In this document: piece after piece, positions 50,478 to 55,173 of the stretch
Layout: each line of letters opens with the position of its first letter
Numbering within the stretch: the stretch's first letter is position 1
Origin: Candidatus Dormiibacterota bacterium
GTDB taxonomy: Bacteria; Acidobacteriota; Polarisedimenticolia; Gp22-AA2
DNA: 63,337 bases
Reading direction: 5' to 3'
Assembly (NCBI GenBank): GCA_035635555.1
Contig: DASQAT010000049.1
Span: 1-63,337 of the forward strand
Notes under the pieces: generated by a model
Seen by the model: the letters and a program-made list of their open reading frames with translations, nothing else
The model's database searches: none
What the model was told of the DNA's origin: nothing
Made by a program: the position numbers and the translations under genes

Positions 50478-51755
50478 GTGCCGATGCGGTTCCGCTGCGC
50501 CCAGTGCCGAGCCCTGACCCAGGTCCAGATCCCGGCGAAGATCACCGCGCCCGTCATCACGGCCTGCTCCGGCTGCGGTCGCAAGTATCGCTTCGCCGTG
50601 GATCGCCCGCGGGCCGCGGACGACCAGGAACGCTACCGCCGGGCCAAGGAATTCGCCGAGACAAACCAGATCGACCTGGGGAGCGCCTACTCGGTGCTCG
50701 AAGGCGTCATGACGCTCGAGGAGGCGCACGGTATCAGGAAAGGGCTGCCGGTCCCGCGTCTTCCCCAGGACGGACAGGAAGCGAAGCCGGGTATCCCCCC
50801 CGCGGCGCCCCTCCCGGCTCCGGAGATCACGCCGCTGGCCGCGGAGCCGTCCCTCCGGCCGACACCGGCCTGGCGAAGCGCGCCGACCCAGGTCACAGCA
50901 CCGGCCCCATTCATTCCGGCCCAGCGACCGAATCTCTCCGAGTCGGAGGCGTCGTACGACCCCGGCTTCGCCGCGGCCGTGCGGGACGGCTGCCTGACGC
51001 CGCAGCAGGCCCTGGAGCGCGGCGATCGCAAGGCGCTCGCCCTGCGCCTGTCGCAGCGCCACAGGCTGCCGATGGAGCTGGCGTTCAGGGTGGCGGAAAA
51101 CCGGGTGACCGTTCACCAGGCGCTGCAGCAGAAGGCGGTCATCGAGGCGAAGGAGCCGCCGCGCCCGCAGACATCGGTGTCGCACGGAGTGTGGAACTTC
51201 ATGATCTTCAGCGTCGGAGCCTTGATCCTGGCCGGGCTGGGCGTGCATGTCTATCACGTCTGGGGGGACTACCTGGCGCAGCGCGGCATGGCGATGCTCG
51301 AGCCGACTCCGGCCGCCGCGTCGACCCGGGCCCACGTGCCGGCTCCCGTGGAGGCTCCCGCCGTGCCGGCCCCGCCGCCGCCGATGACGGTGCCGAAGAC
51401 CGACTCGACCGGCCAGGTCGTCGAGGTCGTGGGTCCCGATCCGAGAAGCGTCCTGATCTCGTTCTGCATGACCGGGCGGCAGTCGGGGCGGCGGGAGGCG
51501 ATCGAGATCGCCCCGACGTCGCCGCCGGACGCCTCGGCCCGCTGGGGCGTCTTCCGCAGCCTGGACAACTCCGCAATACCGCTGCGCGCCATCCTGATCC
51601 GCAAGGACCAGCGCACGGGGCGCTGGAGCGCGGGGGACGGTCGCACGCCGATCATGACCGAGGCGCCGCCGGCCCTGCCGCCGGGGACGCGGACGGTGCC
51701 GGTCTCGGCGACCGAGGCGGTGTCCGACGCGCCGGCCGCCGGCGGCTCTTCTTGA
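50478..51755 (+). CDS. Uncharacterised zinc-ribbon membrane protein
   Basis: A 425-residue protein I cannot name. It opens with a zinc-ribbon pattern, CAQC then CSGC about 22 residues later (residues 7-33). A predicted cytoplasmic helical region follows, with two similar segments (CLTPQQALERGDRKALALRLSQ and ENRVTVHQALQQKAVIEAK, the first shown in part). One membrane helix lies at about 236-258 (FMIFSVGALILAGLGVHVYH). Beyond it are a Pro/Ala linker and a small C-terminal domain with VVGPDPRSVLISFCM. Zinc ribbon, helix and outer domain suggest a membrane-bound regulator or sensor. GTG 50478 or ATG 50484 may start it. Confidence 0.7.
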   Translation: MPMRFRCAQCRALTQVQIPAKITAPVITACSGCGRKYRFAVDRPRAADDQERYRRAKEFAETNQIDLGSAYSVLEGVMTLEEAHGIRKGLPVPRLPQDGQEAKPGIPPAAPLPAPEITPLAAEPSLRPTPAWRSAPTQVTAPAPFIPAQRPNLSESEASYDPGFAAAVRDGCLTPQQALERGDRKALALRLSQRHRLPMELAFRVAENRVTVHQALQQKAVIEAKEPPRPQTSVSHGVWNFMIFSVGALILAGLGVHVYHVWGDYLAQRGMAMLEPTPAAASTRAHVPAPVEAPAVPAPPPPMTVPKTDSTGQVVEVVGPDPRSVLISFCMTGRQSGRREAIEIAPTSPPDASARWGVFRSLDNSAIPLRAILIRKDQRTGRWSAGDGRTPIMTEAPPALPPGTRTVPVSATEAVSDAPAAGGSS

Positions 51756-51779
51756 CAAGAACTCCTCCTCTGCTATAGT
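51752..51779 (+). promoter_or_regulatory. Sigma-70 promoter of the carbamoyl-metabolism operon
   Basis: TTGACA (51752-51757), 16 bases, then TATAGT (51774-51779). It overlaps the stop of the preceding gene. Transcripts starting near 51786 would carry a leader of about 88 bases that contains the hairpin at 51821-51858. Confidence 0.8.
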
Positions 51780-51820
51780 GACCCGGTTCCCGCGAGCGTC
51801 ATGCGCCGCACATAATCCTC

Positions 51821-51858
51821 AGGAGCGATCGGAACGCGCGATTGCTCCTTCGTTTTTT
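51821..51858 (+). terminator. Terminator-like hairpin in the leader (candidate attenuator)
   Basis: AGGAGCGATCG (51821-51831) pairs with CGATTGCTCCT (51839-51849) in an 11-bp stem with one G-U pair and a 7-base loop. TCG and six T residues (51853-51858) follow. It lies downstream of the promoter at 51752 and ends just before the GGGGAGAAG ribosome site, so transcripts must pass it. It could also end transcripts of the zinc-ribbon gene. Confidence 0.7.
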
Positions 51859-51873
51859 CCGGGGAGAAGCTGA

Positions 51874-53187
51874 ATGAGTGCACGACGTGTCCTGATCATG
51901 GGCGCGGCCGGCAGGGACTTCCACAACTTCAATCTCTGCTACCGGGACAACCGGGCCTTCGAGGTCGTCGGATTCACCGCGACCCAGATCCCGAACATCA
52001 GCGGAAGGCGGTACCCCGCGCCGCTGGCCGGGTCGCTCTATCCCGACGGCATCCCGATCTACGAAGAGGACCGGATCGAGGAGCTGATCCGCACGCAGTC
52101 GGTCGACCTGGTCGTGTTCGCGTACTCCGACGTGTCGCACGCGCACGTCATGCACAAGGGCTCGCAGGTGGTGGCCGCCGGCGCCGACTTCGTGCTCCTG
52201 GGGTTCGACGCCACTTCCTTGAAGTCGAAGAAGCCGGTCGTGTCGGTGTGCGCGGTGCGCACCGGCGCGGGCAAGAGCCAGACGACGCGCCGCGTCTGCA
52301 GGAAGCTCCTCGACCAGGGGAGGCGCGTCGTGGCGGTGCGTCACCCGATGCCCTATGGCGATCTCGTGAAGCAGCGCGTGCAGCGCTTCGCCACCTTCGA
52401 TGACCTCGACCGGCACGAGTGCACCATCGAAGAGCGCGAGGAATACGAGCCGCACCTCAAGAACGGAACGGTCGTCTACGCCGGCGTCGATTACGGCGCC
52501 ATCCTGCAGGAGGCGGAGGGCGAGGCCGACGTCATCGTCTGGGACGGCGGCAACAACGACCTGCCCTTCTACAAGCCGGACGTCGAGATCGTCGTGGTCG
52601 ACCCGCACCGCCCGGGGCACGAGATCCAGTACCATCCCGGGGAAGCCAACTTCCGCCGCGCCTCGTGCCTGATCATCAACAAGATCGACACGGCCGACAA
52701 GAAGGGGATCGAGGACGTCAAGGCGAACATCGCCCGCTACAACCCGAAGGCTCTGGTCGTCGAGGCCGCGTCCCCCGTCACCGTGGAGGACCCGGCCGCC
52801 ATCCGCGGCAAGCGCGTCCTGGTGGTGGAGGACGGCCCCACGCTGACGCACGGCGAGATGGGATACGGGGCCGGTGTCATCGCCGCGCAGCGCTTCGGCG
52901 CGGCGTCGATCGTCGATCCGCGCAGCGCCGCGGTCGGTTCGATCGCGGCGACCTTCCGCAAGTATCCGGGGATCGGCACGCTCCTGCCGGCCGTGGGGTA
53001 CGGCGAAAAGCAGATGGACGAGCTGAAGCAGACCATCGACAAGGTGGATTGCGACCTGGTGCTGATCGCCACGCCCATCGATTTGCGCCGGGCCATCCAC
53101 TTCGAGAAGCCGGCGCTGCGCGTCACCTACGAGCTGCAGGAGATCGGCAAGCCGGACCTGGACGACGTCCTGGCGAAGCTGCCTTAA
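51874..53187 (+). CDS. Cyclic 2,3-diphosphoglycerate synthetase-like P-loop protein
   Basis: A 437-residue cytoplasmic protein. The first 110 residues look like a Rossmann domain (VLIMGAAGRDFHNFN). The P-loop is RTGAGKSQTT with GAGKS at 131-135. Later come DVIVWDGGNNDLPF, a G-protein-like NKID (LIINKIDTADKKG), and EDGPTLTHGEMGYGAGV. The layout matches the archaeal cyclic 2,3-bisphosphoglycerate synthetase (CpgS) family, which makes a thermoprotective solute. In bacteria the activity is rarely tested. It heads an operon with carbamate kinase and ornithine carbamoyltransferase, so a role in acyl-phosphate or carbamoyl-phosphate chemistry is possible. The ATG follows GGGGAGAAG. Confidence 0.8.
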   Translation: MSARRVLIMGAAGRDFHNFNLCYRDNRAFEVVGFTATQIPNISGRRYPAPLAGSLYPDGIPIYEEDRIEELIRTQSVDLVVFAYSDVSHAHVMHKGSQVVAAGADFVLLGFDATSLKSKKPVVSVCAVRTGAGKSQTTRRVCRKLLDQGRRVVAVRHPMPYGDLVKQRVQRFATFDDLDRHECTIEEREEYEPHLKNGTVVYAGVDYGAILQEAEGEADVIVWDGGNNDLPFYKPDVEIVVVDPHRPGHEIQYHPGEANFRRASCLIINKIDTADKKGIEDVKANIARYNPKALVVEAASPVTVEDPAAIRGKRVLVVEDGPTLTHGEMGYGAGVIAAQRFGAASIVDPRSAAVGSIAATFRKYPGIGTLLPAVGYGEKQMDELKQTIDKVDCDLVLIATPIDLRRAIHFEKPALRVTYELQEIGKPDLDDVLAKLP

Positions 53188-53195
53188 ATCCCTCC

Positions 53196-54179
53196 ATGCG
53201 GGAATCGAGGAAGCTAGCTGTCGTCGCCTTCGGCGGCAACGCGCTCATCCGGAAGGGCCAGGAAGGGACGCAATGGGAGCAGCTCGAGAACGCGCAGGCC
53301 ACGGCGCGCTCGCTGATCCCGATCCTCAAGGACGGCTACGGCCTGGTCCTGGTGCACGGCAACGGACCCCAGGTCGGAAACGTCCTGATCCAGGTCGAGG
53401 AGGCGGTGACCAAGGTGCCGCCCCTGTCCCTGGACGTCTGCGTGGCGATGTCCGAGGGGAGCATCGGCTACATGCTGGAGGTGGCGGTCAAGAACGAGCT
53501 CAGACGGAGGCGTCTGAAGCGTCCCGGCATCGTCACGCTGATCACGGAGGTGGTCGTCGATCAGCGCGACCCCGGGTTCCGCAGACCGACGAAGCCGATC
53601 GGGCCGTTCTACCCGCGCTTCCGCGCCGAGGATCTGATGCACAAGCAGGGATGGTCGATGGTCGAGGACGCCGGCCGCGGCTGGCGCAAGGTCGTGCCGT
53701 CGCCGCGGCCGCTCGAGGTCGTGCAGAGCGAGGCGATCAGGAGCGCGGTCCGGGACGGGAGGATCGTCATCGCCGGCGGCGGCGGAGGCATCCCCGTCTA
53801 TCGCACGAAGGAGGGTGACCTGCGCGGCGTGGAGGCGGTCATCGACAAAGACTACACGGCGTCGCTCATCGCCTCCGACCTCGGGGCCGACCTGTTCGTC
53901 ATCCTGACGGGGGTCGACCATGTGTCGATCCGTTTCGGCAGACCGGACCAGAAGGCGATCCGGACGATGGATCTCGATGAGGCACGGGCGCATCAGACCG
54001 GCGGCGAGTTCCCGGAGGGAAGCATGGGGCCGAAGATTCGCGCCGCCATCGAGTTCGTCCAGGCGACCGGCCGCGAGGTGCTGATCACCTCGAGCGCCCG
54101 GCTGCTGGAGGCGGTGCACGGCACGGGGGGAACCCGGATCGTGCCGACGGCCGGCGGGCGGCGGAGGTCCCGGACATGA
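53196..54179 (+). CDS. arcC: Carbamate kinase
   Basis: This enzyme interconverts carbamoyl phosphate + ADP and ATP + carbamate, usually to harvest ATP. The 327 residues match the amino-acid-kinase fold: VVAFGGNALIRKGQEG at the N-terminus, LVLVHGNGPQVGNVL (residues about 49-63), IAGGGGGIPVY, and DKDYTASLIASDLGAD. ATG 53196 lies 8 bases after the upstream stop with no strong ribosome site. Its end overlaps the argF start (ATGA). With the next gene this makes the last two steps of arginine-deiminase-type catabolism. No arginine deiminase is in the window, so the carbamoyl phosphate source is open. Confidence 0.93.
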   Translation: MRESRKLAVVAFGGNALIRKGQEGTQWEQLENAQATARSLIPILKDGYGLVLVHGNGPQVGNVLIQVEEAVTKVPPLSLDVCVAMSEGSIGYMLEVAVKNELRRRRLKRPGIVTLITEVVVDQRDPGFRRPTKPIGPFYPRFRAEDLMHKQGWSMVEDAGRGWRKVVPSPRPLEVVQSEAIRSAVRDGRIVIAGGGGGIPVYRTKEGDLRGVEAVIDKDYTASLIASDLGADLFVILTGVDHVSIRFGRPDQKAIRTMDLDEARAHQTGGEFPEGSMGPKIRAAIEFVQATGREVLITSSARLLEAVHGTGGTRIVPTAGGRRRSRT

Positions 54180-55147
54180 CGAGCGTCGATCTGATCTCGA
54201 TCCACGATCTGACGCGCGAGGAGGTGCTGGAGATCCTCGACCTCGCCCTGGAGGTGAAGAAGGATCCCGACGCCTACGGCCGGGCCCTGCAACGGAAGAC
54301 GCTGGCGATGATCTTCGAGAAGCCGTCCCTGCGCACGCGCGTCAGCTTCGAAGCGGGCATGACGCAGCTCGGAGGGCACGCCATCAACCTGGGGCCCGCC
54401 GACATTGCCATGGGAACGCGCGAAAGCGTCGCCGACATCGCCCGCACGCTCTCCGGCATGGTCGACGGCATCATGGCACGCACCTTCTCGCACCAGGCCA
54501 TCGTCGACCTGGCCCGGCACGCCGCGGTTCCGGTCATCAACGGTCTCTCGGACCACCTGCATCCCTGCCAGGCGCTCGCCGACTTCCTGACCGTGCGCGA
54601 AGTGTTCGGGCGCTGTGAAGGGATCCGACTTGCGTACGTCGGGGACGGGAACAACGTGGCGCACTCGCTGATGTACGCCGGCGCCAAGCTCGGGGCGCAC
54701 GTCCGCGTGGCCACGCCGCCCGGTTACGCACCCGATCCGGGCGTCGTGTCGCGGGCCCTCCAGGACGCCGCGTCCACGGGCGGCAGCATCAAGGTCGGCA
54801 CCGATCTCGGGGAGGCGATCGCGTCCGCCGACGTGGTCTACACCGACACCTGGGCGAGCATGGGGCAGGAGGCGGAGCACGACGAGCGCGTCCGCATCTT
54901 CCGGTCCTACCAGGTGAACGCCTCCGTGATGGCCCATGCGAGCCGCGGGGCCGTGTTCATGCACTGCCTGCCCGCGCACCGGGGAGAGGAAGTCACCGAG
55001 GACGTCTTCGAGTCGAAGGCGTCGGTGGTCTTCCGCCAGGCCGCCAACCGGCTGCATGCCCAGAAGGCGGTCCTGCTCCTGCTCCTGGGCGGCGAATCGG
55101 AAGGATCTCGGGGCCGCAGGACAGGCTCCCAGGCAGATCAGACTTGA
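54176..55147 (+). CDS. argF: Ornithine carbamoyltransferase
   Basis: This trimeric enzyme moves the carbamoyl group between carbamoyl phosphate and ornithine, giving citrulline. Its 323 residues are of normal length. The carbamoyl-phosphate loop is SLRTR (51-55). HPCQ lies at 129-132, the ornithine-specific DTWASMGQE at 224-232, and HCLP at 263-266 with the ornithine-site cysteine C264. The last 25 residues or so (GGESEGSRGRRTGSQADQT) are a low-complexity tail that reaches into the next promoter. Next to carbamate kinase it may run in the catabolic direction, but an anabolic role is equally possible. Its start overlaps arcC. Confidence 0.93.
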   Translation: MTSVDLISIHDLTREEVLEILDLALEVKKDPDAYGRALQRKTLAMIFEKPSLRTRVSFEAGMTQLGGHAINLGPADIAMGTRESVADIARTLSGMVDGIMARTFSHQAIVDLARHAAVPVINGLSDHLHPCQALADFLTVREVFGRCEGIRLAYVGDGNNVAHSLMYAGAKLGAHVRVATPPGYAPDPGVVSRALQDAASTGGSIKVGTDLGEAIASADVVYTDTWASMGQEAEHDERVRIFRSYQVNASVMAHASRGAVFMHCLPAHRGEEVTEDVFESKASVVFRQAANRLHAQKAVLLLLLGGESEGSRGRRTGSQADQT

Positions 55148-55173
55148 CAGTTCTCGCGCCGACCTGCCACAAT
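55144..55173 (+). promoter_or_regulatory. Sigma-70-type promoter of the rplM-rpsI operon
   Basis: TTGACA (55144-55149), 18 bases, then CACAAT (55168-55173). It overlaps the end of argF. The start is near 55180, leaving about 52 bases of leader rich in T/G. I saw no clear L13 leader fold. Confidence 0.55.

Follow-up and report, generated by a model that had tools for sequence, protein, structure and literature searches.

A candidate attenuator with a promoter-proximal terminator in the short leader of a cDPGS-like/carbamate kinase/ornithine carbamoyltransferase operon

The operon and its leader

The window analyzed here is the whole stretch of 63,337 nucleotides, one contig of a 4.28-Mb genome (the source genome, labeled G000). 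An upstream open reading frame that ends at 51755 is followed by a promoter-like sequence, a hairpin with a U-run, a ribosome binding site and an operon whose first gene starts at 51874 (Table 1). From the predicted start at 51786 the distance to the stem is 35 nt, in agreement with the roughly 35 bases given in a preliminary description of this DNA, and the whole 5' leader measures ~88 nt.

Table 1. Features of the leader and operon, with positions in the window.
Feature	Position	Strand	Remarks
Sigma-70-type promoter TTGACA-16-TATAGT with extended -10 (TG)	51752..51779	+	Score 11/12; overlaps the stop codon of the upstream ORF
Predicted transcription start	51786	+	7th base past the -10; the conserved 5' element begins there in 8/8 species
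Conserved 5' element TTYCCGCGAGCGT, 13 nt	51787..51799	+	Leader alignment
Mini-ORF ATG CGC CGC ACA TAA (MRRT*)	51801..51815	+	Judged a chance ORF; no counterpart in the 7 other leaders
Terminator hairpin, 11 bp, 7-nt loop	51821..51849	+	Orthologous intact stem in G003, G004 and G005
Terminator U-run (TCGTTTTTT)	51850..51858	+	T7 in G003, G004 and G005; absent or broken in G001, G002, G006 and G007
Ribosome binding site GGGGAG	51861..51866	+	7 nt 5' of the ATG; read from sequence
First gene, 437-aa P-loop protein, distant cyclic 2,3-diphosphoglycerate synthetase relative	51874..53187	+	Profile match
Carbamate kinase arcC	53172..54179	+	Start approximate; TIGR00746, 364 bits, exceeds the cut-off
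Ornithine carbamoyltransferase argF	54176..55147	+	TIGR00658, 401 bits

Single-sequence searches of the PDB and NCBIfam gave no match for the first-gene product, and a profile search matched it to 9sxb, 8oru and 8ork (E 2e-9 to 1e-5), which points to a distant relative of the archaeal cyclic 2,3-diphosphoglycerate synthetase (cDPGS). The named relatives of the gene include one from an Acidobacteria groundwater MAG with 89% identity, on which ground the source organism is regarded as an acidobacterium. The operon is followed by rplM, which has a promoter-like site of its own at 55144-55173. In the genome profile search arcA was not found above the cut-off (best model match 33 bits versus a cut-off of 489) and the argF product was the only OTC in the genome to reach a full score. 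A catabolic operon of the arginine-deiminase type is therefore unlikely, and a biosynthetic role is the more likely one. A search of the literature for attenuation in carbamate kinase operons, or for this gene pair, yielded nothing relevant.

Promoter and 5' element in eight species

We compared the leaders of eight species of the family, G000 to G007. The alignment showed the -35 region and the motif TCTGYTATART in all eight, which bears out the strong promoter of the preliminary description. The element TTYCCGCGAGCGT lay at a fixed distance from the promoter, the spacing being off by one base in two of the eight species, and it was preserved exactly or with few changes throughout (G005 and G006 carry changes). 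In G007 the upstream gene was a different one, with a C-terminus resembling an NtrC-type regulator, yet promoter and 5' element stayed with the downstream gene; the promoter and leader thus belong to the cDPGS-like/arcC/argF operon.

The combined pattern of promoter and 5' element occurred once in the source genome, and the exact 13-mer occurred 0-2 times per genome across the family. We rejected a regulon-wide 5' element on the single occurrence of the pattern in G000 and the small number of other 13-mer matches in the family. The element was also retained in the four species whose terminator is decayed or absent, so element and terminator do not form one obligatory switch. A long-range pairing of the 5' element with codons 2-4 of the first gene was considered, but the columns that would form it were nearly invariant across the leaders. 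Synonymous variation in codons 4-9 (51883-51900) fell in the lowest 2% of windows over the eight species, and a CGA codon among these was kept in seven of the eight; this low variation is only suggestive.

The hairpin and its position in the leader

The sequence scan gave the hairpin as AGGAGCGATCG-GAACGCG-CGATTGCTCCT, with 11 pairs, followed by TCGTTTTTT. The folding energy of the isolated hairpin was -17.6 kcal/mol in G000, and the isolated hairpins of the intact leaders ranged from -17.1 to -19.5 kcal/mol, close to the mean of -16.5 reported for 5' terminators (PMC2965389), which counted for the attenuator reading. In G000 the stem and a six-U run are parted by three bases (UCG), which suggests leaky termination in the source species; the stem of G005 extends right to the U-run.

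Dinucleotide shuffles of positions 51700-51900 (201 bases) produced any hairpin with a U-run in 45 of 5000 cases and one as good as the real one in 2 of 5000. Background counts were taken with a custom hairpin and U-run scanner from stretches that add up to ~1.51 Mb, or 35% of this genome. The scan returned 29 terminator-like sites, ~20 of them credible by eye, and a comparable terminator lay directly 5' of the ribosome site in only 6 of the 1229 gene calls, one of which was the terminator of a SAM riboswitch recognized by Rfam. Judged by sequence, the hairpin and U-run are confirmed as a real terminator-like signal, and hairpin, T-run and adjoining ribosome site read as first described. This intrinsic terminator sits between the promoter and the first start codon, the arrangement by which an attenuator is recognized.

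The 8-species leader alignment showed neither room for a second promoter 3' of the hairpin nor a conserved -10 there, so that a second start after 51858, which the preliminary description had named as the counter-case, finds no place. The sequence CATAAT at 51811-51816 was tried as a second -10 and rejected for its poor -35 and lack of conservation. A scan of the window found no other good terminator between the upstream ORF and the operon. The hairpin might for that reason act chiefly as a 3' terminator for transcripts from upstream, or else be an evolutionary leftover with no regulatory effect on the operon, and an apparent argS gene-end terminator does lie 24-96 nt 5' of the orthologous gene in Anaerolineales. 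We consider this quite unlikely, since the stem persists in two genera amid diverged surroundings and since transcripts of the operon itself have to run through the hairpin, the promoter being upstream and no conserved -10 following it. Among 126 upstream regions of the orthologous gene, the combination of promoter and terminator was confined to this family and G016 (L021), and the remaining terminator matches were mostly argS gene-end terminators.

Conservation and loss of the terminator

The terminator was intact in four of the eight species (G000, G003, G004 and G005), all within a two-genus clade that includes the source genome. It was decayed or absent in G001, G002, G006 and G007, where the stem had at least two mismatches and the U-run was broken or lost. 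The first-gene tree placed G005 outside the genus of G000; it placed G001 and G002 as a pair inside that genus, and G006 and G007 further out, so G001 and G002 are the pair inside the clade without an intact terminator. On the simplest reading, the terminator would have been gained before the split of the two genera and lost once in G001 and G002; alternatively, it may be ancestral to the family, with more losses.

In the four species with the terminator, the unit of promoter, 35 to 38 nt, stem, U-run and ATG was intact, the ATG lying 21 to 25 nt past the end of the stem. This geometry was retained while the sequence separating the 5' element from the stem had diverged, and the stem substitutions were one-sided and kept the pairing (G-U to A-U, U-A to U-G). 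Covariation of the stem, the check proposed earlier for the orthologous leaders, was not above shuffles over all eight because four of the species have no stem. The 5' arm (GGAGCGATCG) was preserved in G001, G002 and G007 despite a different 3' arm, so the arm may predate the terminator. Four of the eight species manage without the terminator, and control by it would therefore not be essential to the family.

Sensors, antiterminators and ribosome-linked control

Rfam gave no credible match to the leader even at E 10, and no curated aptamer model of a known riboswitch class matched it; the same search recovered the SAM and c-di-AMP riboswitches of the source genome as positive controls. The earlier remark that no riboswitch is recognizable here was thus upheld. 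There was no conserved fold in the 35 nt ahead of the stem, and across the four terminator-bearing species no conserved antiterminator, as a different fold arose in each of them when the terminator was forbidden. With only 35 nt and no conserved fold, a ligand-binding domain is hard to place and a ligand riboswitch is unlikely.

The strong conservation of the 5' element and its restriction to this operon would fit a broader proposal, in which a ligand-sensing leader or a specific antiterminator (a riboswitch or an RNA-binding protein) controls the terminator and the 13-nt element is part of the sensor. We regard this as unlikely, given that Rfam is silent, the alternative structures vary between species and the element remains where the terminator is absent. 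The preliminary suggestion of a new metabolite-responsive element for carbamoyl-phosphate metabolism is not supported, given the lack of a conserved pre-stem fold and antiterminator and a 5' element that outlives the terminator. Its expectation that transcripts stop unless antiterminated survives in part: attenuation is backed by relatives that have kept promoter, 5' element and stem, but an antiterminator is not conserved.

Control could also be linked to the ribosome, either because AGGAG in the 5' arm resembles a ribosome site, so that a 30S subunit bound there blocks the hairpin, or because the 5' end of the leader pairs with the real ribosome binding site. In three of the four terminator-less species the 5' arm has changed less than the 3' arm, the yajC leaders described below have G-rich 5' arms too, and in the minimum-energy fold the partner of the 5' end is the SD in G000 and bases just past the U-run in G005. 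However, the pairing of 5' end and SD was not above that seen when the SD regions of the species were interchanged (permutation p 0.57) and in most species was no better than with other SD regions of the genome, while G-rich 5' arms are common among terminators. Both forms of ribosome-linked control are very unlikely in our judgment.

The mini-ORF MRRT*, with two arginine codons just 5' of the stem and upstream of an arginine gene, would allow attenuation by a leader peptide. It was found in the source genome only, three of the seven leaders without it carry the terminator, and it has no good ribosome site, so that it is refuted as a conserved mechanism and we give it practically no chance. 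The leader is a discrete unit bracketed by promoter and terminator, and its ~70-nt short RNA could be a small RNA in itself, with the gene expressed by read-through; we find this hardly credible, as the region between 5' element and stem is unconserved and Rfam holds no match. For ANTAR regulation, PF03861 had no match in the genome, a search in which the control genomes gave no match either, and in three of the four intact leaders the loop has 7 or 4 nt, which does not match the ANTAR hexaloop.

Other leader terminators in the genome and class

By sequence, the genome appears to use leader terminators elsewhere, at a SAM riboswitch and at yajC, a gene whose identity is our reading of the translation; this speaks for the attenuator reading. 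The yajC leader (L130:18686-18706 (-), L222-L229) contains the hairpin AGGGGGGTGACCGGCCCCTCT with a U-run ahead of its ribosome site. Hairpin and U-run lay directly 5' of the ribosome site in G000, G001, G002 and G005; G004 was cut at a contig end. In G003 the U-run was present and the scanner found no good stem, and the leaders of G006 and G007 had no hairpin with U-run and a promoter close to the gene. The same clade thus seems to carry leader terminators at two unrelated operons, on the strength of two cases. It is a long shot that this clade acquired short terminator leaders at several unrelated operons, this one and yajC among them, in which the G-rich 5' arm mimics a ribosome binding site and free 30S would be a shared antiterminator that links transcription to ribosome supply.

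The SAM riboswitch (L124:16934-17105 (-)) has its own terminator and lies directly 5' of a ThiF/MoeB-like gene. At L168:12583-12914 (+) lies a tRNA gene, its anticodon read by eye as CAT, which has a terminator of its own and a perfect sigma-70 promoter; the c-di-AMP riboswitch follows it. The hairpin GGGGTGCTTCCTTCGGGAGGCACCCC with T7 at L195:3878 (+), 27 nt 5' of a 249-aa gene and with TATAAT roughly 130 nt upstream, may be another leader terminator.

In G016, from another family of the class and the one genome of its order in this comparison, a promoter, the hairpin ACGGAGCTTAAGCTCCGT with a U-run and a ribosome site were found on the reverse strand ~50-130 nt 5' of the orthologous gene (L021). 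The hairpin sequence is unrelated to that of G000, and this leader terminator is apparently independent. Two genera of another family (L017, L023) have in common, 5' of the orthologous gene, a promoter and a long leader in which GGTCCGCCGGGCCAACGCCACGG lies close to the start; the leader has no Rfam match.

Discussion

We propose that the short 5' leader of the operon probably contains a promoter-proximal intrinsic terminator, which passes part of the polymerases into the genes. RNA polymerase would start at the strong promoter near 51786 and make the hairpin within ~65 nt of the start. A good part of the polymerases would stop in the U-run, ~15 bases short of the start codon, and those that read through would transcribe the cDPGS-like, arcC and argF genes, so that the terminator would keep down the output of a near-consensus promoter. 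Read-through may be regulated; most likely its level would depend on the terminator, which is of moderate strength, and on general elongation factors (NusA, NusG), and not on a small-molecule aptamer. Since no conserved antiterminator, leader peptide, SD pairing or aptamer fold was found, a plain promoter-proximal terminator is the best supported reading.

As a candidate attenuator the leader is clean and is conserved within a clade; it comes from a phylum in which hardly any predicted attenuator has been given a function, and from a source genome where intrinsic terminators are rare. It does not indicate a new ligand class, and it marks a candidate control point before a widespread, little-studied operon of cDPGS-like protein, carbamate kinase and ornithine carbamoyltransferase.

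Many 5' terminators have no known sensor, the rimP-leader among them (Naville and Gautheret 2010, PMC2965389). The rimP-leader is a short hairpin adjoining the ribosome site, with no antiterminator visible in most species (PMC2965389). The present leader resembles it in its short hairpin, G-rich 5' arm, U-run beside the ribosome site and lack of a visible antiterminator or aptamer. It differs in belonging to another operon and in being found in half of one small family rather than in most bacteria; it has no GGGc...gCCC signature, and its stem (AGGAGCGATCG/CGATTGCTCCT) precedes a cDPGS-like gene, not rimP-nusA-infB. Almost none of the attenuators that the same survey predicted in Acidobacteria have associated functions (PMC2965389). 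The present leader shares with these orphan 5' terminators the lack of a known signal, but unlike them it has been traced through eight related species. With the SAM riboswitch (RF00162) of the same genome it has in common a terminator hairpin and U-run directly 5' of the ribosome site, whereas the riboswitch has an aptamer that fits the full 108-position model, and here the stem is preceded by 35 nt without an aptamer. The leader is thus probably an orphan, terminator-only attenuator of a known kind, like the rimP-leader but not one.
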